From Alkalinema sp. RU_4_3 (GTDB lineage: Bacteria; Cyanobacteriota; Cyanobacteriia; Leptolyngbyales; Leptolyngbyaceae): a stretch of DNA of 33,374 nt. The notes beneath the pieces were generated by a model. That model did not search any database, was not told where the DNA came from, and was given only the letters and a program-made list of their open reading frames with translations. The position numbers and the translations under genes are program-made. Shown here piece by piece: positions 680 to 10,503 of this stretch (the first letter of the stretch is position 1; each line of letters opens with the position of its first letter). The stretch covers positions 1 to 33,374 of the forward strand of contig JAAUSA010000028.1 of the NCBI GenBank assembly GCA_012031975.1. Direction: 5' to 3'.

Positions 680-2599
680 CTAGATATATGGATTTTGATA
701 AAGACAGCCCCTTAAAGTCGAACAATCATTTGGAACATCCATTGATATGGTGTCTTGGATAATCTGTGCGATTGGAGCCACTTTCTGATTGTCGGGATAA
801 TTTTGCCAAGTCACCACATAAGAAACATCATTACTATTCTTAATAATGAATGCTTCCGATCTCACCCCCCCACCCTTTTTGAGGGGGCCGTGTCCTACTT
901 TACTATGCGTAATCGTATATACCTGTAAAGGTGGTTCTAATCCAGTCCAAGTAGCTCTTCCTCGCATTCGCCATAGCATTTCTTTGCTACTATTTTTTTG
1001 TCCCGGATCATCAAAAAGTTTCTCATCCCAGAGCAATGTAAACAGCTCTGCCATCTGAAATGTTGTTGTAGCTTGAGCAACTTTTTGATCATTAACAGAA
1101 TCAAGTAGTATATAAGGCCAATGCCGCTTATAGTCACCTGCTAACCAGATCCCACTCCCGATAGTCTGATCAAAGAACCCTCCTGATTCAAGTGCTCCAA
1201 TGATGTAGCCATACCCCAAACCATGAATACTTTCGTAGGCGTGATCATTTGTTAAAGGTTGCTGAGCAATGTTGGTGAGGTGACTGTCATACTCTATAGT
1301 AAACTTCACAAGACCTTCATTGGGAAAATATTCAAAGATTTTCTTGTAATCCGGCTTCAGACTGCGATGATTTTTAGGAACTCGACTTCTATCGACCTTA
1401 CTTCCCAATGCCATTAAAATGGCTTCAATTTTCTGATGGATCTGCGGCGTAATTTCCTGCTCTAAAGCACTAAAAAATGCTTGATTCGTTGTTGGCTTTA
1501 ACGTTTGAACGAGTCGATTAGCAGCAGATCGGAGTTCATGCGCAGCATATATTGCTGCAAGCTTTATGAGGCTTGCAGAGTAATGTACTTCATGCTCTAA
1601 ATGTCCCGCTCTTTGATGACATTTCTTTTTGTCTTTACTCAATTGAATAATGGTGAAAGCTACTTTGTCTTGCAACTCAATCGGCATATATTTCTTGATC
1701 GCCGTATTAAGTTTATTTTGTAATTCTTTATTTCTGCAAGTTCTTCCTAAAGGTACATTGGGGAATGCATTTTCTTGAGATAGTGCATTGATTTCATGAT
1801 GGAAGTTTTTGGACGGATAATGAGGGGGCGTATAGCGTTCTGGAAATGCCTTGACTGAACTGCGAGTGCGAGAACTTTTTGTGCAGTATCGCCCAGGCAC
1901 AATAGATCTAAGCACGATGCAGGAAGATTTTTGATTGTTCGTTAGGAGTTGGCTGTTCAACTTTACTTCTACGCATCGACAAGGCTGAACTCCCTTCTTC
2001 TTCCATTGTAGGTAGGTTCGCCAAGTTTTTTTTAGGGCTGATTCGAGACGAGCAGGATTAGACCGAATTGAGTCTCGAAATACAATAATCGGCACACCGT
2101 GCATTGGATTCTTTGGCTCAAGAAAAAGAACCGCATCTTCTTCCTGTGGAATGATTAACCACCACGAAGAATTTATCTCCCTAGCTCGTAGTGCAGGAAC
2201 TCTTTGATCTTCTTTGTAAATACCGCCTAGTTTGCCAGACTTGACTGCGGCTACCATGCCAGACGCATCAGCACTCATTACCGGATCCTTAGACATGCGT
2301 AGGAGCGCTCGTTGCGCAAAGATATCAATGCGATCGCTCCGTACATCATCATAAGTTAATACTCGTTCTGGAGTTGATATTCTGAGGGAAGAGCTTGAAG
2401 AAATGCCCACATTTGCTAAGCGAGATGGTAGACGTACTCCCTTGAGAGCAGGTTGATCCTGTCGGTTGGTGTTAGAGGCTACGACAACTGACTTGGATGA
2501 AAGAATTGTTCCCCACTCATTATCACTTGCGACCAAGTGATCTATAGAGGCACTGGGCACTAAAGGGGCTTCAAATAACTGCTGGTTGTGTGTATCCAT
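680..2599 (-). CDS. Two-domain protein: FEAP-tagged N-terminal domain plus serine beta-lactamase-like domain
   Basis: This is a 639-aa protein of no named family. Residues 8-12 read LFEAP, a motif shared with the next gene. Residues about 85-180 (RIDIFAQRALL, then VKSGKLGGIYKEDQRVPAL and SSWWLII) align by eye with the whole of the 151-aa neighbour. From about 310 to the end it resembles a class A beta-lactamase / penicillin-binding fold. An SxxK motif (SLIK, S343-K346) opens a helix (LAAIYAAHELR). A helix reading TTFQMAELFTLLWDEKLF follows, and a KxG-type strand motif (KKGG, 574-577) precedes RSEAFII. The fold assignment rests on motif order; the middle S/YxN element is not obvious. Such domains can be peptidases, esterases or inactive binders, so activity is unknown. 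AGGTGA precedes the ATG. It is the last gene of the array, 42 bp after the 151-aa gene. Confidence 0.7.
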   Translation of the reverse strand: MDTHNQQLFEAPLVPSASIDHLVASDNEWGTILSSKSVVVASNTNRQDQPALKGVRLPSRLANVGISSSSSLRISTPERVLTYDDVRSDRIDIFAQRALLRMSKDPVMSADASGMVAAVKSGKLGGIYKEDQRVPALRAREINSSWWLIIPQEEDAVLFLEPKNPMHGVPIIVFRDSIRSNPARLESALKKTWRTYLQWKKKGVQPCRCVEVKLNSQLLTNNQKSSCIVLRSIVPGRYCTKSSRTRSSVKAFPERYTPPHYPSKNFHHEINALSQENAFPNVPLGRTCRNKELQNKLNTAIKKYMPIELQDKVAFTIIQLSKDKKKCHQRAGHLEHEVHYSASLIKLAAIYAAHELRSAANRLVQTLKPTTNQAFFSALEQEITPQIHQKIEAILMALGSKVDRSRVPKNHRSLKPDYKKIFEYFPNEGLVKFTIEYDSHLTNIAQQPLTNDHAYESIHGLGYGYIIGALESGGFFDQTIGSGIWLAGDYKRHWPYILLDSVNDQKVAQATTTFQMAELFTLLWDEKLFDDPGQKNSSKEMLWRMRGRATWTGLEPPLQVYTITHSKVGHGPLKKGGGVRSEAFIIKNSNDVSYVVTWQNYPDNQKVAPIAQIIQDTISMDVPNDCSTLRGCLYQNPYI

Positions 2600-2641
2600 G
2601 ATTCACCTATTATCAAGAAGCAATACATTACTTGAAGTTGT

Positions 2642-3097
2642 TCAACAGGCTGCTGTGAGAACAGGCTTTCCGAACTCCAAACGAATTTCCTGAATCAGCA
2701 GTTGCTGATTCAAATTCCGACGAAAAACAAAAGTAAACGGCGCACTCATAGTTGCTGGCTCACAGAACATATCTGAATTTGAATTTCCTAACAAGAGCCA
2801 CCACGACGTGTTCATTCGTCTAGCTAATAGTGCCGGCACCTTTTGATCTTGCTGATATAGCCCTGTAACATTGCCAGATTTCACGGAACTGACTGTTCTG
2901 AGAGCGATCGCACGATCTATTGGATTACTATTCAGCATAGTCATGAGTGCACGCTGTGCACTCACATCAATACGTGGATCAATGACACTACGTGAATCTA
3001 TTCCAAAAGTTGGTAGAACTTCAAATTCGGAGTTAATTGATGAATTTGGAAGTGCTTGATAGGGTGCTTCAAATAGCCATTGATTTTGATTTTTCAT
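2642..3097 (-). CDS. Short FEAP-tagged protein, paralogue of the N-terminal domain of the downstream gene
   Basis: This 151-aa protein begins MKNQNQWLFEAP, with the same LFEAP motif at nearly the same position as in the 639-aa product. The body contains RIDVSAQRALM, VKSGNVTGLYQQDQKVPAL and NTSWWLLL. Each has a counterpart in residues 85-150 of the downstream protein, so the two share one domain. This copy stops where the longer protein goes on into its linker and beta-lactamase-like domain. I cannot name the domain. The pair looks like a tandem duplication in which one copy is domain-only, possibly a partner, regulator or immunity-like subunit (inference). It has no membrane segment or classical signal peptide. 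Confidence 0.65.
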   Translation of the reverse strand: MKNQNQWLFEAPYQALPNSSINSEFEVLPTFGIDSRSVIDPRIDVSAQRALMTMLNSNPIDRAIALRTVSSVKSGNVTGLYQQDQKVPALLARRMNTSWWLLLGNSNSDMFCEPATMSAPFTFVFRRNLNQQLLIQEIRLEFGKPVLTAAC

Positions 3098-3218
3098 TTT
3101 TTGAACCTACAGTTTAAACAATAGAGACATTGAGCTAGGAACTTGAGACGCTGAAGTTAAACCGTTAAGAATTAAAATCTCGCTTCATAGTTCTGAGCAC
3201 ACTCCAAATTTTGTCCAG

Positions 3219-4379
3219 CTACCCCATAATTATTGGCGCTGGCATTACCCCATTCGATCGCCCCACCACAGCATCCCGTCTCATCCCACTCGGCGGCGGT
3301 CCCTGCATATACACCTGACGCGGTGGCGGAGTCGGACGATTCATCTGCATCCCCTCCGTACTCGATAGCCATTCCTCCGAGTATTCCGCAATCCGATAGA
3401 GCAATGTTTCAAAATCCGTCCGGCTCTTTTGCAGCACATAGGGTTCCGCCAACCAGCGCAGAATCTCCCGCCCACTCACCGCCATCCGATTCATCGTACT
3501 GGCATGAACCGACTCATGGAAATATTGCCACAGCACCAGTTCAATCATTTCCCAAGCATTATCCGCCCCAAATTGTGCCTTCAGATCCGGCGCATCCAAC
3601 ACCTTAAAGCATTCTGCCAAGGCTTGACTCGTTTCCACCCGTAGCACATTCACATAGCCATAGGAAGCATTTTTCACGTTATTCCGTAGATCGAGTCCTG
3701 CCCGTCGCACGATCGCCATCGATCCAAACGTGGGATCATTCGATCGTTCCCGCACCACTTCACTCACCCGCTTATCCCGCCAGTATTTCGCCACTTCGCC
3801 AATAAAATGAGTGAACAATCCATGGAACTGTGGATTCGGTCGCGCCCCAGAACCAGGATCAACAGCGGTGTACCCAAAGACACGACGATAAGCCTGCATT
3901 CGATCGCGCTGGTGATAGCGCAAAATATTATGCTTATCGAAACGATACAGTCCATAGGCTCCTTCACCACTCGAAATCCGCAATGTACCTGCGCGGAAAA
4001 GCTCTTGCAGCTTGTTCATAACGCGGAACACACCGAGGCGTTCATGGACATAGAGATAGTAAAGATCGGCAGTAGCTAGGAGGCGATCGCTCGTTACCGA
4101 GTCGTCATAATCGATCACCCCACCGGAGACTTGGGCATCCCCTAAATCTTTAGAGGAATCTTTCCCCAATCCAATCAAATCAGCCAGTCCGCCATCGGTA
4201 GGTAATCCTTTGCCATTTTGGGACTCATCAAATTTGCGCAGTTGGTCATCCACCATGCGATTGAGAATTTCTGCCATTTGGGGATTGGCAGCTAGTTCGG
4301 GACCGAGTTGTTGAATGGTGTTTTGGAGAAGAGCCGCAACGCGATCGTTGCGCTGATCATATTCTTTAGTCTTTAGCAT
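3219..4379 (-). CDS. Hypothetical protein with HExxH-like motif
   Basis: This 386-aa protein is predicted to be soluble and matches no family I can name. The N-terminal half is helical and charged. The second half contains FHESVHAS with H288-E289-x-x-H292 in a hydrophobic context (ELVLWQYFHESVHAS), the pattern of a zincin active-site helix. A possible downstream Glu ligand is not clear, so the motif could be chance. The last 45 residues are Pro/Met-rich and low complexity. It sits between the 470-aa gene and the short FEAP gene in the same orientation. Its conserved look and spacing suggest a component of the same system. The C-terminal tail might be disordered. Confidence 0.6.
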   Translation of the reverse strand: MLKTKEYDQRNDRVAALLQNTIQQLGPELAANPQMAEILNRMVDDQLRKFDESQNGKGLPTDGGLADLIGLGKDSSKDLGDAQVSGGVIDYDDSVTSDRLLATADLYYLYVHERLGVFRVMNKLQELFRAGTLRISSGEGAYGLYRFDKHNILRYHQRDRMQAYRRVFGYTAVDPGSGARPNPQFHGLFTHFIGEVAKYWRDKRVSEVVRERSNDPTFGSMAIVRRAGLDLRNNVKNASYGYVNVLRVETSQALAECFKVLDAPDLKAQFGADNAWEMIELVLWQYFHESVHASTMNRMAVSGREILRWLAEPYVLQKSRTDFETLLYRIAEYSEEWLSSTEGMQMNRPTPPPRQVYMQGPPPSGMRRDAVVGRSNGVMPAPIIMG

Positions 4380-4456
4380 GAGGTTTGTTCCTGAAAAATG
4401 ATGTTACCAAGCAATCACAGCAAACTGAAGTGACTTTGAGCCGCAAAGCTGATACC

Positions 4457-5869
4457 TTAAACACCCAAGTCAGCTAAAGTGTTCAGTTGAAATAAGAGTT
4501 CTTTGAGTGGCTGTTCAACGCGATCGAAGGATAAGACTCGACCCAGCAAACGCTCTTGTGCATTGCGACGCTCAGTGCGCTCATCGTCAGAAATAGGATC
4601 CACTCCAGGAGGGCTGGTTGCTGCTGGAGGTTTGAGATAGTCTAAGACAAAGCCAATAATCCAGAAGAGAGTATCCGCCTGATCGGTAACAAAATCAAGA
4701 CCAAATCGACCAGATGAACTTAAGAGTGAAGGAGCTTCCTCCTCAACGAATCGATCGATCCAATCATTAAAATCATTCATTGTAATTTCTGCAAGATTAA
4801 CTGTAAGAGGATTATCTTCCGGTGAGTTAATACTCAGCGTAAAGCCTGATCCCAAAGCAGTAAATAATGCTGAAGCTGATCGGCGCTCACTGACGGTAAA
4901 GCCCACAGCATCCATCGCATTCATAAAACTCCGATTACTATCCGCAATCACGGTGAGCATAATATTCACCCGTGAAATCTTGTCACTGTATAAACTTTGA
5001 ATGTCTTGTGAACGAGTATTTTTCACATATTCCTGAAAAGCACTTCGTAATGTAGCTGCATAACTTTTTAATAATTCATAAGCTGCAATTTGTGTCTCAT
5101 CTTGAATTGTGACAGCAATTGCATCACCTGTTGAAATGCCGCTGGTGTTTCTTCCCACCTGACGAGTCAATCGAATTCGTTTTCCCAGTTCTTCAATTGA
5201 CTTCTTCAATGTCATGAATGAGGTATTCACCCGTTCAATTCGAGGACCGTCAAGTCGTCCAAACTCCTCAACCAAGATGCTCACCTGAACCTTGATTAAA
5301 CTCCGAAGTGCTTCTACCGCATCAATATCGGCGGTTGGATCAAAAGGTTCTAAACTTGCTAGTACTTTTAAGGCATCAGCCGCAATAATACTACTTTGGC
5401 GATAAAGATTTGCCTGTTGAACAGGAAGCTGCCCCCCACCAACTGCACCATTGCCACCATATAAATGACTCTCAAGCGCGACCGCACTTCGAGACGGAGC
5501 CGTCAACACAGTACCATTCTGCGCGGTAGGAAATGCATCATTCAATGCCTTGATGAATCCATCAATTCCCTGTCCCGGTGTTCTGCCGAGAACTTGAGAG
5601 ATCGCTCGTTCCACTTGACGTGTGAGCAAACTTGCGTTTCCGGTTGCACTGCTCGTAATACTGCCATTTTCAAACGCGGTCGATTCAGTAGCCGCCGATC
5701 GGTTTAGCGTTTCAGAGATCTGAGCTAGTTGCTCAGCAATAGGGTTTTGGGCAACACCTTCTTTGATAACCAGCTTATTAATGAGTGATTTACGGAGTTG
5801 CTTTAATTGGGAAGGATTAGTAATCCAATCTGGCTGGGGCTGAGTGCTTAGAGGAAGTGGGAAAGTCAT
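4457..5869 (-). CDS. Hypothetical protein, largely helical
   Basis: This is a 470-aa product with no recognisable domain. The first 70 residues include PIAEQLAQISETLNRSA and look like a helical lead. The centre has long amphipathic helices (for example DAVEALRSLIKVQVSILVEE and INTSFMTLKKS-like segments). Near the C-terminus there is one moderately hydrophobic stretch (TLFWIIGFVLDYL) followed by a Pro-rich linker and a final helix. There is no signal peptide and no catalytic motif that I can see. It lies between the predicted metalloprotease and the HExxH-like protein with about 100-bp gaps, so it is probably co-expressed with them. A structural or scaffold role would fit but is a guess. Confidence 0.55.
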   Translation of the reverse strand: MTFPLPLSTQPQPDWITNPSQLKQLRKSLINKLVIKEGVAQNPIAEQLAQISETLNRSAATESTAFENGSITSSATGNASLLTRQVERAISQVLGRTPGQGIDGFIKALNDAFPTAQNGTVLTAPSRSAVALESHLYGGNGAVGGGQLPVQQANLYRQSSIIAADALKVLASLEPFDPTADIDAVEALRSLIKVQVSILVEEFGRLDGPRIERVNTSFMTLKKSIEELGKRIRLTRQVGRNTSGISTGDAIAVTIQDETQIAAYELLKSYAATLRSAFQEYVKNTRSQDIQSLYSDKISRVNIMLTVIADSNRSFMNAMDAVGFTVSERRSASALFTALGSGFTLSINSPEDNPLTVNLAEITMNDFNDWIDRFVEEEAPSLLSSSGRFGLDFVTDQADTLFWIIGFVLDYLKPPAATSPPGVDPISDDERTERRNAQERLLGRVLSFDRVEQPLKELLFQLNTLADLGV

Positions 5870-5976
5870 AGGTTACGTTTCTCATCTCAATAAAGTGAAC
5901 AAAAAGAGAAATTCTCTGCAAGGTAAGATTAACGATTACGATCAATTCTGTGAGGAATCGAATATCTGGATATAGG

Positions 5977-7347
5977 TTATCGCCGTCCAAGAATGCGGTA
6001 AAAGTTGTCCGTAATGATTTGTGGTTTTGCTAGCTGGTTATCGATCGCAAACCGTGCCGCACTGATCATCAGTCGAACCGGAATCGTACCCGGATCTTTG
6101 CCTGCCGCTAACCGTCGTCCCGCCTCTTGAATCAACTCCTGCTGCGTTGGCCCAAAATCGACAATCTGAGCCATCGACTTATCACCCAGTTGCTTATAAG
6201 GCTGGAACACCATCGTATCCACCACCAACTCAGCCGCCGCCGAGGCAGTCTTCATAAATTGAGGCGGAATATCGATCGATGAAACATGCGGATACAACCG
6301 TTGCCAAACCCGCGTCAGATCATCCGCCATCGGCTTAAAACCTAACCGCCGTAACAGAATCAAATTAATCAAGACCCGTAAATAGGGCGTGGGATGAGCC
6401 GATGTCGGACTAAACTGCAAAGTTGCCTTGCGTCCCCGTCCCACCACATCCATCAGAGACTCCACCGCCGCTGGCCCCCCCAACACCAGCGCAAACATAT
6501 CCGCCATCATCTCCTTATGCCAATGCGCCCAGGTCTTAGCAATATCCGGCGGGATTTTCCCTTCCGTTGTCAGTCGCTGGAAAATCCGTACAGGCATTAC
6601 CTCCCATAAGCCCAAATCCGCTTGGAGATTATGCGAAACCTCATGCAACACACTTGACAAAGCCCACACATTATCCAAACGATGCTGCGGAATCACAATC
6701 AGCGGAAACAGATTGGGATTATGCTGGAGCCGCTGCATCGGCACACTACGACGAATCGTATAAGGACTAAATCCACTATCAGCATAGCTAAAGGGCAACA
6801 AATTCGGCATCGGGCGAGCAATCCCCAAACCCACATAAACCTTCTCGTAGCACCCCACCGCAATCCGATCGATCGCCCGCAACTTCTCCCCAAAGCTGGA
6901 TAACCGCTGGACAAACATATCAAAGTAGAAATCCCAAATCCCTTCCAAATAAAGCACTTGGTCGCCTACCTTTTGTTTGCGCTCCAGGAGCAATTGGAGA
7001 CGATCGCCATTGGGATCTCGGCGAGCTGCTTGAGCCGCCTCATCCACCCAACGGGCTTTCTCCATCAACTTATGGCGATACTTTCCAATCAATTGATTTA
7101 CCGCCTCAATATGCCCCTCACTGGGAGCCGTGATCCCCGTACCAAACTCATCGAGACCAAATGGGCGTAACGCCTTGACTTGGCGACACAGATTAATCGA
7201 CTGGATATGCAGCCAATTATCCATGAGGCGTTGTTCCGTCGGTGTCGTCGCGCCACGTCGAGGGGTTACCTTACTGGGGAACCGTTGAACCGATGATTGT
7301 ACGATCGGCTTTGCCTGTGGGGGCGCAATGGGGGAAGCAATAGCCAT
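5977..7347 (-). CDS. Predicted zinc metalloprotease-like protein (HExxH...E)
   Basis: This 456-aa protein carries a convincing gluzincin-like signature. The helix SSVLHEVSHNLQADLG gives H235-E236-x-x-H239. About 40 residues later HKEMMADMFALVLGG offers E279 as a third ligand in the usual E-x-x-A-D setting. The N-terminal 40 residues are Pro/Ala-rich and probably disordered. The rest is helical. There is no signal peptide or transmembrane segment, so it acts in the cytosol or is exported by an unusual route. AGGA lies just upstream of the ATG. Known families with this arrangement cleave proteins, but the substrate here is unknown. Neighbouring Glu/Trp-rich proteins encoded upstream are candidate substrates by context only. 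Confidence 0.65.
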   Translation of the reverse strand: MAIASPIAPPQAKPIVQSSVQRFPSKVTPRRGATTPTEQRLMDNWLHIQSINLCRQVKALRPFGLDEFGTGITAPSEGHIEAVNQLIGKYRHKLMEKARWVDEAAQAARRDPNGDRLQLLLERKQKVGDQVLYLEGIWDFYFDMFVQRLSSFGEKLRAIDRIAVGCYEKVYVGLGIARPMPNLLPFSYADSGFSPYTIRRSVPMQRLQHNPNLFPLIVIPQHRLDNVWALSSVLHEVSHNLQADLGLWEVMPVRIFQRLTTEGKIPPDIAKTWAHWHKEMMADMFALVLGGPAAVESLMDVVGRGRKATLQFSPTSAHPTPYLRVLINLILLRRLGFKPMADDLTRVWQRLYPHVSSIDIPPQFMKTASAAAELVVDTMVFQPYKQLGDKSMAQIVDFGPTQQELIQEAGRRLAAGKDPGTIPVRLMISAARFAIDNQLAKPQIITDNFYRILGRR

Positions 7348-7400
7348 AGATCCTCGCGTTACATACGGGTTGAACTAATTTCTGACGATACGATCGCAGG

Positions 7401-8363
7401 CTATCGTCCAGCCGCCGCACATTTCGGACAGGGAGCCGCTCCCGTCGATGGCATATTCATCCGACGAGGATTCGGTGGGGCAGTTCTTTGCCGAATTACC
7501 GCATTCCGTACAACTGCTTTTTGCACGGCTTGCGGATTGCTGAGTACCCGATTAGTCGCCGTTGCCATGGCCTTCACCGCCGTTGCACTATTAATCGGCT
7601 GTCCTTGGCGTGCAGCGGCTTTGAGTGATGCGATCGTTCGCCGTTGAATGGTTGGGATTGTTCGTAGGAGCTGTTTTCCGACTGGCCCTTGTTGGCTTAA
7701 CACTTTGGCCAATCTGCCTGTTGCTTGTGTCATCGTCGGCATTACCGATCGCAACGCCCGCTTGCCACCCATAATCGTGATTGTGATTGGCAAAGTTGCG
7801 GCGATCGCGGCTTCTGCTTCCGCTTCATTACTGGACTCGGCTGCTTGTGCTGCGAGAAACTCAGTCAACGCGGCTTCATAGGCTACCTCAGCATTGGCAA
7901 CTTCAGCCTCGGCTTCATTCGTCCCAAACAAATTTGCTTCCATCTGCGCTACTTCCATCTCAGCCTCTTGTAAGAGAGCACCTGTCAACTTTCCTGCCCA
8001 CGGTGATGCGACAGCGCCAACGCCTGGAATCATCCCCACCAAACTCCTCGCCACATTCGGTGCTAGCTTTCTTGCTAAAGGAACCGCCACTTTAGTCAAA
8101 GAACCCAACCCTTTACGCATCCGTTTAAAGAAAAACTCACCTTCAGGATTTACCTCAGGATTGCTATAGGGATTCGCTTCCCAGGAATTTTCAAACTCGG
8201 GGTTGCCGTAAGGATTCGTTTCCCATTCATTCTGCATTTCAAATTCTGGATTAGTCTCCCATTCATTGTTGGCTTCCCAGGAACTTTCAAATTCCGGATT
8301 GCTGTAAGAATTGGCGCTATGAGGAGCAGATGCTTCAAACATGGTTTCATACTGCATTGCCAT
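7401..8363 (-). CDS. Acidic-aromatic repeat protein with glycine-rich hydrophobic segment and C-terminal CxxC
   Basis: This is a 320-aa unknown protein. Residues 8-12 (MFEAS) resemble the FEAP motif seen elsewhere in the cluster. Residues 20-76 are repeats built on NPEFE-x-SWEA and NEWETNP units. Residues 84-131 form a Gly/Ala-rich amphipathic to hydrophobic region (LVGMIPGVGAVASPW), reminiscent of bacteriocin or pore-forming segments. Residues 142-302 are alignable with the upstream neighbour (GGKRALRSVMPT, IPTIQRRTIASL, RVLSNP, VVRNAVI). It ends with a single CPKC (312-315). A strong AAGGAG precedes the ATG. It has no classical signal peptide. The role is unknown; the composition suggests a secreted or processed precursor, which is inference. 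Confidence 0.65.
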   Translation of the reverse strand: MAMQYETMFEASAPHSANSYSNPEFESSWEANNEWETNPEFEMQNEWETNPYGNPEFENSWEANPYSNPEVNPEGEFFFKRMRKGLGSLTKVAVPLARKLAPNVARSLVGMIPGVGAVASPWAGKLTGALLQEAEMEVAQMEANLFGTNEAEAEVANAEVAYEAALTEFLAAQAAESSNEAEAEAAIAATLPITITIMGGKRALRSVMPTMTQATGRLAKVLSQQGPVGKQLLRTIPTIQRRTIASLKAAARQGQPINSATAVKAMATATNRVLSNPQAVQKAVVRNAVIRQRTAPPNPRRMNMPSTGAAPCPKCAAAGR

Positions 8364-8412
8364 AATTTATTACTCTCCTTCGAGTTTAATCAACGTACTG
8401 CCAAACCTTATC

Positions 8413-9180
8413 CTATACCGATCGAGTTGTTCGTTTTTGGATTAAGGCATTGCGAATAATGCCACTCGTAACTAATTTCGGATTACTCAATACCTGCTTA
8501 GTATGAGTTGCGAATATCTGTCGTGCAACACCAGCATCAACTTTTCGACCCGATCGATATGCCGCCCTTAGGCTGGCGATCGTCCGTCTTAAAACTGTTG
8601 GGATCAGGCGCATTAACCGCTGTCCTGCTGCACCTCGTTGATGCAGTAAACGAACTAATTGGGCATTAGCTTGCACCAGAGTTGGCATCACCGATCGTAA
8701 AGCCCGACTTCCACCCATACTGCTGACCATGCTAGGCAATGCTGCACCCAGAAATGCCTCCGCTTCCGATTCGCTATTGCTATGACTGGCTTCCGCTGCT
8801 AACACTTCTGCCAATGCTGATTCATAAGCCATTTCACTATTACTCACTTCAGCTTCCAATTCTTGATTGCCAAAAGCCTCTGCTTCCATAGAAGTGGCGA
8901 TCGCTTCGCCCTCCCTCAACCAAGAATTAATCAAATTTTGTGCCACAGGACTACGAATCGAGCCAGCCAACATTTTGGCAGCAATCGGAGCCATTTGTTG
9001 CGCGGTAGGAACAGTTCCTCTGGCCGTTTTTTGTAGACTACTGAGTATGCTTGGCCAGGAATACTCATTTTCCGCTTCCCATTCCCCCTCACGGAAGGAT
9101 GAAGCATGATGGGAGGCTTCTTGTACCTCCCACTCCTGTTCGGCTTCAGCCATACGATAACCATTGAAAGTGGGGTTCAT
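8413..9180 (-). CDS. Glu/Trp-rich protein, paralogue of the downstream acidic-repeat protein
   Basis: This is a 255-aa protein of unknown function. The first 42 residues are acidic and aromatic (EQEWEVQEA, EGEWEAENEYSW). A helical central region follows, then residues 98-251 that match residues 142-302 of the downstream 320-aa protein (MEAEAFGNQELEAEVSNSEM, GGSRALRSVMPT, LIPTVLRRTIASLRAA, QVLSNPKL, IIRNALIQKRT). It lacks the long repeat block, most of the glycine-rich segment and the terminal CPKC of its paralogue. GGAGG is eight bases before the ATG. The stop codon of the receiver-like gene directly abuts this ATG, which points to coupled translation. The pair arose by tandem duplication. 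Confidence 0.65.
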   Translation of the reverse strand: MNPTFNGYRMAEAEQEWEVQEASHHASSFREGEWEAENEYSWPSILSSLQKTARGTVPTAQQMAPIAAKMLAGSIRSPVAQNLINSWLREGEAIATSMEAEAFGNQELEAEVSNSEMAYESALAEVLAAEASHSNSESEAEAFLGAALPSMVSSMGGSRALRSVMPTLVQANAQLVRLLHQRGAAGQRLMRLIPTVLRRTIASLRAAYRSGRKVDAGVARQIFATHTKQVLSNPKLVTSGIIRNALIQKRTTRSV

Positions 9181-9540
9181 TCAGAATCCTCCCAAGTAAA
9201 TCTGTCGAATTGACTCAATCAACCCCTGCGACGACAACACCTGCATTTGCTGACAATGTAAATCACGCCAATAGACGATCGCTTCATTCCCAGCCGTCGT
9301 CAACAACACAATTTTCAACCGAGGATAATCCCCCAAAAGCTGAAAACAGAACTCCGGCAACTGATACACATCATCCGTCCCAAAAAGTAGAACATCCGTC
9401 TGATGCATCATGGCCACAACCCCATCCCACTCCCTGATTGAACCGAGCCAATCAATATCCACCTGTTGCTGCAACATCAGGTGAACCCAATCTGCAACCA
9501 TATTCGGAAGATTAAAAGTGAGAACACGAATGTTTGCCAT
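9181..9540 (-). CDS. Degenerate stand-alone receiver-like protein
   Basis: This 119-aa product has the length and beta/alpha rhythm of a response-regulator receiver domain: IRVLTF, then DVLLFG, LKIVLLTT and a final IESIRQIYLGG. The key residues are missing. The N-terminal acidic pair is replaced by NLPN, the phospho-acceptor Asp after the DVLLF strand is Gly, and the conserved Lys position reads SSQ. It is therefore probably not phosphorylated and may act by protein contact. It is encoded between a receiver-HTH regulator and the Glu/Trp-rich gene, with no gap to the latter. The assignment is by pattern only. Confidence 0.55.
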   Translation of the reverse strand: MANIRVLTFNLPNMVADWVHLMLQQQVDIDWLGSIREWDGVVAMMHQTDVLLFGTDDVYQLPEFCFQLLGDYPRLKIVLLTTAGNEAIVYWRDLHCQQMQVLSSQGLIESIRQIYLGGF

Positions 9541-9626
9541 GGCTGTATTTCGTATTCGGAATTGACTCTATCTTGGCAGTTCATCCACCCTAAAAACAAC
9601 TAATCGAAGACCAGTTTTTCCCAAAC

Positions 9627-10226
9627 CTATCGATCCATCTTCGATAGATCTTGGCGATCGATCGAGGATCGATCCCCCCTAAACCAATCATTATCCCGCG
9701 CCAACTGCATCGCCTGCCACCGCGACTGCACATTCAACTTCCCCAGCAAATTATGCACATGATATTTCACCGTCCCTAACGAAATTGACAGCTCCGCCGC
9801 AATCTCCCCATCTCCCTGATTTTGTTGAATTCCATACAGCACATCCCACTCCCGATTCGTCAGAGAAGCCGGACGCAGTAGCTTTGTCCGTTGTGGCACT
9901 AACTGCTCCACCAATCGATCGAAAACCGCTATCGGACATTGAAACAAACCCCGTTCAACCAACCGCATCATCTCCGCAATCTGTGCCATAGCTGCCCCCT
10001 GCAAAACATAAGCATGAGCCCCCGCCGCAATACAATCCACAATCACCTCCGGATCATCCGGCAACTCGATCGCCATCAAATAACTCTCTGGATATTGCAT
10101 CCGCCAATCCCGCATCGCCCCCATCAAAACATCGCGCCCAACCCCGTAATCCCACAAAACCCACCCACGTATCAATCCGGTTTCCTGCAGCTCCACCCGA
10201 ATCAAATTCAAAACCGATTCACGCAA
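9627..10226 (-). CDS. LuxR/NarL-type response regulator with atypical receiver
   Basis: The C-terminal 65 residues are a clear LuxR-type HTH (LTNREWDVLYGI, then GEIAAELSISLGTVKYHVHNLLGKLNV). The N-terminal part is a receiver lacking a normal first strand. WVLWDYG supplies an Asp at the expected phosphorylation position, while AYVLQGA has Gln where Lys is usual. The start is uncertain: the only upstream start in frame is a TTG at 10226, with an in-frame TAG four codons before it. The codons just before that TAG read LPLVH, followed after it by SEPSLRE, which resembles an intact receiver start. It may therefore be a shortened or nonsense-interrupted gene. It probably regulates the downstream array. 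Confidence 0.7.
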   Translation of the reverse strand: MRESVLNLIRVELQETGLIRGWVLWDYGVGRDVLMGAMRDWRMQYPESYLMAIELPDDPEVIVDCIAAGAHAYVLQGAAMAQIAEMMRLVERGLFQCPIAVFDRLVEQLVPQRTKLLRPASLTNREWDVLYGIQQNQGDGEIAAELSISLGTVKYHVHNLLGKLNVQSRWQAMQLARDNDWFRGDRSSIDRQDLSKMDR

Positions 10227-10503
10227 AGATGGCTCGGACTAATGCACTAATGGGAGCTTCCGGCTGAATCCATTGCTTTTGAATCAACTGTCTTTGGGTC
10301 AACTGATCTAAAATGGGTGATTCCATAGATTGAAAGCGATCGACATCCGGCCGAGATGAGAAGCAAACCATATCAATACGTTCTCCTGAAAGCAGAAGGG
10401 GGCAATACGTAGCTTTTTTATCCGTGAAATTACTGTAGCAAACCGAAAAAAAACTGTCGCCCATAATCTTGTGATTTAGAGCAAAATCTTGCGATGCACC
10501 CAA
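10219..10503 (-). CDS. Doubtful small ORF upstream of the regulator
   Basis: This open frame of up to 94 codons begins at a TTG, with later ATGs at residues 14 and 45. It overlaps the start of the receiver-HTH gene by 8 bases. An AGGAG lies about 11 bases before the third start (translation MVCFSSRPDVDRF). The product matches no known family. It could be a small coupled gene, a leader, or the decayed 5' part of the regulator. I include it because the interval between the AraC gene and the regulator otherwise holds nothing. Confidence 0.25.
   Translation of the reverse strand: MGASQDFALNHKIMGDSFFSVCYSNFTDKKATYCPLLLSGERIDMVCFSSRPDVDRFQSMESPILDQLTQRQLIQKQWIQPEAPISALVRAIFA

Follow-up and report, generated by a model that had tools for sequence, protein, structure and literature searches.

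A conserved gene cluster with a short N-terminal tag in a cyanobacterium: a candidate tagged-cargo system for wall-active enzymes

Gene content and conserved core of the array

The stretch analysed here (the window, 33,374 nt) is one whole contig (G000:C235) of the 5.25-Mb assembly of the cyanobacterium Alkalinema sp. RU_4_3. Nine co-directional open reading frames, g1 to g9 from left to right, occupy positions 680-10226 on the minus strand with gaps of 0-121 nt (Table 1), and all nine correspond to the packed genes listed in a preliminary description of this DNA. The strings from which that description had drawn a common Phe-Glu-Ala motif were also located, LFEAP at residues 8-12 of g1 and of g2 and MFEAS at residues 8-12 of g6 (MAMQYETMFEAS), as was QEWEVQEAS near the N-terminus of g7; its two acidic-aromatic paralogues are g6 and g7, which share 43% identity. 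Our analysis reveals that g3 to g7 form a core recurring in fixed order in other genomes, and that genes beside this core begin with a short tag, which we interpret below as a candidate docking motif.

Loci were gathered by searching GTDB contigs with g3 and whole genomes with g5; individual loci and genomes are cited by L and G numbers where needed. In the 18 sampled loci the order of the core is g7/g6 (one to three acidic-aromatic proteins), g5, g4, g3, and some loci have a 220-aa helical protein between g5 and g4. Both g3 and g5 are present in 17 of the 18 loci, the absences being contig ends, and g4 and g6/g7 in 15 each under stringent BLAST. The carriers represent three phyla, comprising five cyanobacterial families, a Thermomicrobiales contig (L016) and a Paraburkholderia plasmid (L018). 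According to the preliminary description, a single system would be supported if at least five of the families recurred together and kept the FEA motif; what we observe is the core families in order at 18 loci, and the motif on both cargo and scaffold-type proteins (next section). We are virtually certain that the cluster is conserved.

Within this range the core is rare. Homologues of g3 occur in 7 of 386 evenly drawn cyanobacterial genomes and in 1 of 251 genomes of the phylum of L016, and g5 in 8 of 42 genomes of the order to which the window belongs; at the genome level the two co-occur above chance (Fisher p = 1.8e-7, overlapping sample, own genome excluded). Sequence identity of g3 is 64-92% among close relatives and 64% between cyanobacteria and Thermomicrobiales. 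The patchy distribution combined with high identity points to horizontal spread of the cluster.

At the residue level, H235, E236, H239, E279 and D283 of g5 do not vary among 13 homologues, the most divergent of them 22% identical, from which g5 is predicted to be a gluzincin-type metalloprotease. The preliminary description had proposed a zincin together with a second HExxH protein. The former is borne out by the invariant site of g5, whereas the HESVH string of g3, although present, is not conserved (RESVH in L014, HRSVH in L016, NERLV in L018 and other forms elsewhere), and g3 was rejected as a second zincin. In g6, Glu, Phe, Trp and Tyr make up 40% of the first 80 residues, and both g6 and g7 have a conserved C-terminal domain in addition to acidic-aromatic repeats. 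Relatives of g4 carry an additional N-terminal transthyretin-like domain (PF01060, E=4e-4 in L029). Profile searches of the products, as the preliminary description had suggested, matched the core to no known family: none of the four core families gave a significant sequence match in Pfam, NCBIfam, PHROGs, PADLOC or the PDB. Integrase rows for g5 in the PDB profile search were at chance level, and weak Pfam rows (GvpK, Spidroin_N, PARP, DUF1699) reflect composition or chance. The AlphaFold2 model of g5 gave no meaningful fold match by Foldseek or VIA-align, the top rows being helical bundles.

Table 1. Features of the array in the window
Feature	Coordinates	Strand	Description
g1	680..2599	-	Tagged cargo, start MDTHNQQLFEAP; domain common to g2 and the L012 cargo; putative C-terminal serine beta-lactamase/DD-peptidase-like domain
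g2	2642..3097	-	Tagged cargo, start MKNQNQWLFEAP; g1-type domain without the beta-lactamase-like part
g3	3219..4379	-	Most conserved core protein; not a metallopeptidase; alignments A1, A5
g4	4457..5869	-	Helical core protein; alignment A3
g5	5977..7347	-	Predicted gluzincin-type metalloprotease, H235-E-V-S-H239 ... E279xxxD283
g6	7401..8363	-	Scaffold-like; MFEAS tag, NPEFE/NEWE repeats, conserved C-terminal helical domain, CPKC tail; alignment A4
g7	8413..9180	-	g6 paralogue; shorter Glu/Trp-rich N-terminus, no FEA tag
g8	9181..9540	-	Receiver-like regulator; kept in 6 loci; no Pfam match
g9	9627..10226	-	LuxR/GerE response regulator; PF00196 3.6e-16; frameshifted relative to relatives
5' part of disrupted g9	10219..10503	-	Other frame; QLIQKQWIQP agrees with the N-terminal residues of the g9 homologue in L009

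A short N-terminal tag on variable cargo and on the scaffold

Genes just downstream of g3 begin with a 12-residue consensus, M-x-x-Q-x-Q-W-L-F-E-[A/I/L/V]-P. In close relatives the genes directly downstream of g3 start MNRQTQWLFEAP, MNKQNQWLFEAT, MNRQTQWLFEIP, MKTQRQWLFEAP, MKTQNQWLFELP, MTLQNQWLFEAP, MKTQYQWLFEVP, MNKQNQWLFEAP, MNKQTQWLFEAP and MNRQQWLFEAP, a series to which g2 (MKNQNQWLFEAP) also belongs. The Thermomicrobiales cargo starts MSTPRMALFEALPETG, and another contig of the same genome encodes MAGSEGGWLFEAP. Nine genomes yielded 14 N-terminally tagged proteins in our count, of which 13 are in cargo position by g3 and one is on the separate Thermomicrobiales contig. The tag of g6, whose homologues start MAMQYEAMFEAP and similar, is a close variant of the cargo tag, so that the motif is seated on two protein classes, the g6-type scaffold and the variable cargo. 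Scaffold-type proteins of a distant lineage (L031/L038/L039) start MYQAFEADVMDDL or MDQPFESDVMDDL, retaining FE[AST].

An initial Met followed by FE[AST] within 16 residues was found in 24 of 96 cluster genes compared to 2 of 200 flanking genes (19 loci; Fisher p ~4e-11), and one of the two flanking carriers (L016:11210-12799) actually adjoins g3. The exact QWLFEAP pattern, searched in DNA, occurs in 4 of 386 cyanobacterial genomes; in two it is N-terminal and inside the cluster, both genomes having a close-type core, and in the other two it falls in a spurious 76-codon frame. The tag is almost certainly real and above chance.

Behind the tag the proteins differ. For most cargos, pairwise BLAST alignments are confined to the first 10-30 residues, the exceptions with related bodies being the peptidoglycan-binding cargos L009a, L009b and L010 and the domain common to g1, g2 and the L012 cargo; the g2 domain (~90 aa) is 43% identical to residues 90-178 of g1 and 35% identical to residues 172-292 of the L012 cargo. 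Internal copies of the motif are present in the cargos of L011 (a second WLFE) and L014 (WLFEAP), which argues for docking over a cleaved leader. The L011 cargo consists of the tag joined to a g6/g7-type domain and further sequence, and this fusion, together with the tag shared by g6, suggests that cargo and scaffold are linked.

Domains were recognised in 6 of the 14 N-terminally tagged proteins. PG_binding_1 is found in three cargos (9e-16, 2e-15 and 5e-15), one of which also has SLT (1.6e-5), Peptidase_M74 in the Thermomicrobiales cargo (1.8e-13) and Extensin-like_C in an L015 cargo (1.3e-14). For g1, the match to Beta-lactamase2 (PF13354; E=1.6e-4) reaches 21.5 bits against a cut-off of 22 and covers profile positions 131-210 of 214 only; SxxK (SLIK) and K-V-G motifs were noted by eye. 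In a sister lineage (L030) the cargo combines M15_3 with PG_binding_1, and ESPLENPF/ESPAENPF repeats replace LFEAP. The cargo is very likely to be mainly peptidoglycan-active. No hydrophobic segment of membrane-helix strength, and hence no signal peptide, was detected in the core proteins or in the 14 cargo-position proteins tested, and Sec/Tat-exported wall hydrolases were accordingly rejected as an identity for the latter. Separately, the distant cyanobacterial locus L032 (6276-14426), which includes a g5 homologue, encodes proteins with ESPF/DSPFL/ESPFL repeats near their N-termini, one of them ending in a trypsin-like domain, and these repeats are possibly an analogous tag.

Regulators, flanking genes and the missing cluster end

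Outside the core, conservation of g8 and g9 is confined to the close lineage (6 of 18 loci), and seven other loci have a different small GerE-type protein. The preliminary description had counted two atypical receivers among the array members; g8 is indeed receiver-like and g9 a response regulator, but both are lineage-specific regulators rather than core. Moreover, g9 is disrupted at its 5' end near 10219-10226, where relatives have a single gene of 246-260 aa, and the disruption is either a real frameshift or an assembly error.

At its opposite end the cluster probably runs off the contig, at window position 1. An Amidohydro_2 gene comes after the tagged genes in relatives, and some of these have an M20 peptidase gene there as well, both being untagged and conserved neighbours. 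In the genome of the window this Amidohydro_2 gene lies at C28:2800-3546, just inside a contig end, preceded by an untagged NlpC/P60 gene, and this location suggests that the window cluster was truncated by the assembly. The C28 stretch (L083, G000:C28, 1-3561), which also holds a CARDB-like fragment, is probably the missing end; no overlap of C28 with the left end of the window was found, and adjacency is suggested by the gene order of relatives only.

Genes flanking the core vary from locus to locus. A family of ~290 aa (CVLDPxLALSxYGLxLVKQL...) with no Pfam match lies beside the core in four loci (L014 3640-4506, L028 4880-5896, L031 4748-5611 and L038 14017-14889). In Pleurocapsa (L017, 1959-8692) a g3 fragment adjoins genes for an ABC exporter of the C39 type and for a fusion of an HlyD-like protein with a receiver. 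On the Paraburkholderia plasmid (L018, 3861-3962) PLSDB gives a 102-bp 'GIM-2 beta-lactamase' call, which is shorter than a gene and probably spurious.

Possible function, rival explanations and known systems

Peptidoglycan enzymes must exit the cytoplasm, yet those found here are without a Sec/Tat signal, which makes the tag and the adjacent core assembly candidates for their recognition and delivery. We postulate, with a probability of about 0.5, that the array is a tagged-cargo system in which the motif docks wall-lytic enzymes on a g6/g7-g5-g4-g3 assembly for non-canonical release. The tag would be a docking motif recognised by the core assembly, and that the core reads it we consider likely. 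The acidic-aromatic repeat proteins g6/g7 could form a multivalent scaffold recruiting tagged wall enzymes, with g3 and g4 as putative structural or adaptor subunits, and the predicted gluzincin g5 would mature or release scaffold and cargo. The loaded assembly might then carry the enzymes from the cytoplasm by a non-Sec route, be it a particle, a vesicle or release by lysis; we place export by this route slightly short of an even chance. Enzymes so delivered would most likely attack the walls of neighbouring cells, though antagonistic use itself we rate as rather unlikely. The LuxR-type regulators would control the system. Docking, export and antagonism are thus what we infer from the observed cluster and tag, and the same applies to the working idea of the preliminary description that the motif marks proteins for a common carrier, export route or protease.

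Several observations weigh against such a system. The conserved part of the cluster includes no transporter, membrane anchor or channel that would account for the exit of the enzymes, and no clear immunity gene was seen, none having been systematically sought. Among the tagged cargos, g2, L011, L012, L013 and L066 lack a recognised domain that acts on the wall, and for the second L015 cargo and both L028 cargos the assignment as wall hydrolases was made by eye only. In lineages L029/L037/L061 and in L018 the FEAP-type tag is absent or different on the downstream genes. Finally, the AlphaFold2 models are too poor to establish a fold, with a predicted local distance difference test score (pLDDT) of 39 for g3 and a mean of 55 for g5, whose N-terminal part is poor.

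The same components could serve the producer itself, in self-directed remodelling of its wall or in programmed lysis. The core would then hold the hydrolases inactive in the cytoplasm via the tag until g5 releases them on a signal. The lack of signal peptides on the cargo, the presence of a protease and LuxR-type regulators within the cluster or next to it, and the absence of a clear immunity gene (with the limit given above) all suit this explanation, as do the untagged M20 peptidase and Amidohydro_2 neighbours, which could process the freed peptides. However, such fast exchange of cargo types and such patchiness (carriers are 7 of the 386 cyanobacterial genomes) would be expected of a conflict system more than of lysis as a housekeeping function, and we regard self-lysis as an unlikely but serious alternative. 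It is less probable still that the tag serves as a leader for degradation or processing, with g5 cutting FEA|P as a pro-peptide protease, g6/g7 as its other substrates and no carrier involved. In its favour, no conserved core family other than g5, with its invariant gluzincin site, can be recognised as an enzyme, and the tag is short and usually N-terminal, but the internal copies in the L011 and L014 cargos suit docking better, and the most conserved member, g3, is left without a role. A hotspot of unrelated genes with a chance motif would explain why the genes flanking the core differ among loci; this we consider close to negligible, as it is contradicted by the fixed order in 18 loci of three phyla, by the co-occurrence of g3 and g5 and by the enrichment of the motif.

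Contractile injection systems are found in cyanobacteria (PMC8894136), and one toxin associated with an extracellular contractile injection system (eCIS) is predicted to be a peptidoglycan hydrolase (PMC8213781). The tagged proteins might accordingly be effectors of such a system encoded elsewhere in the genome, with the tag as a loading signal, and a phage-sheath gene is indeed present in 14 of 17 core-positive genomes, including that of the window, where it lies on another contig. On closer inspection the sheath is about as common without the core (13/19 versus 14/17; p = 0.45), and within the order of the window it is found in 5 of 8 core-positive and 24 of 34 core-negative genomes. Three core-positive genomes (G011, G118 and G279) have no sheath match, and none was found inside any cluster locus. 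An injection system acting in trans is therefore quite improbable.

The preferred reading of a tagged-cargo system has partial parallels. As in effector loading by secretion systems and eCIS (PMC8213781 for the latter), varied enzyme bodies, including peptidoglycan hydrolases, are joined to a single conserved recognition element, and their genes lie next to those of a conserved apparatus. Unlike them, the window-type cluster has no recognised sheath, tube, spike, ATPase or membrane channel, and sheath presence is not associated with it. The cargo-loading peptides of encapsulins and other compartments are likewise short linear motifs on unrelated enzymes without signal peptides. Here, by contrast, no shell protein was recognised, the core has no PDB sequence match, the tag is N-terminal and the cargo would act outside the cell.

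A further parallel comes from distant plasmid loci in Tolypothrix, Burkholderia, Bradyrhizobium and Sinorhizobium, where homologues of g3 (E down to 4.7e-31) or g5 (1.6e-41), recognised at profile level, lie by lytic enzymes, and genes for S8 peptidase, patatin, CHAT, amidase or peptidoglycan-binding proteins adjoin the g3-like or g5-like domains. These loci differ in that the g3 domain makes up the C-terminal portion of a ~600-aa protein, neither g6/g7 nor a FEAP tag was found, and the partner genes are others. The comparison suggests a larger superfamily of related clusters that includes the window type. Related-looking clusters were noted at L063 12990-20686, L064 6743-20894 and L019 6405-24895 (Tolypothrix, Burkholderia and Bradyrhizobium).

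Two other identities were rejected. For an anti-phage defence system, eight of the proteins gave no significant PADLOC match; for a phage module, there was no significant PHROG match, g3 and g5 had no match in 50,697 phage records, and none was found in viral contigs. In line with the preliminary description, which knew of no named system with this set, we found none with these parts in the libraries and open-licence literature searched, although a description in the subscription literature is possible; the cluster is apparently undescribed. More tentatively, we propose an undescribed, horizontally spread system in which an N-terminal QWLFEAP-type tag loads peptidoglycan hydrolases without signal peptides on g6/g7, g3 and g4 and g5 releases them, amounting to a new non-Sec delivery to other cells. 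Should the tag prove to be a signal for export or loading, it would represent a new protein-delivery principle, offering a sequence rule by which to find effectors and a programmable short loading tag. Naming the core families would in turn annotate a cluster that spans several bacterial groups.

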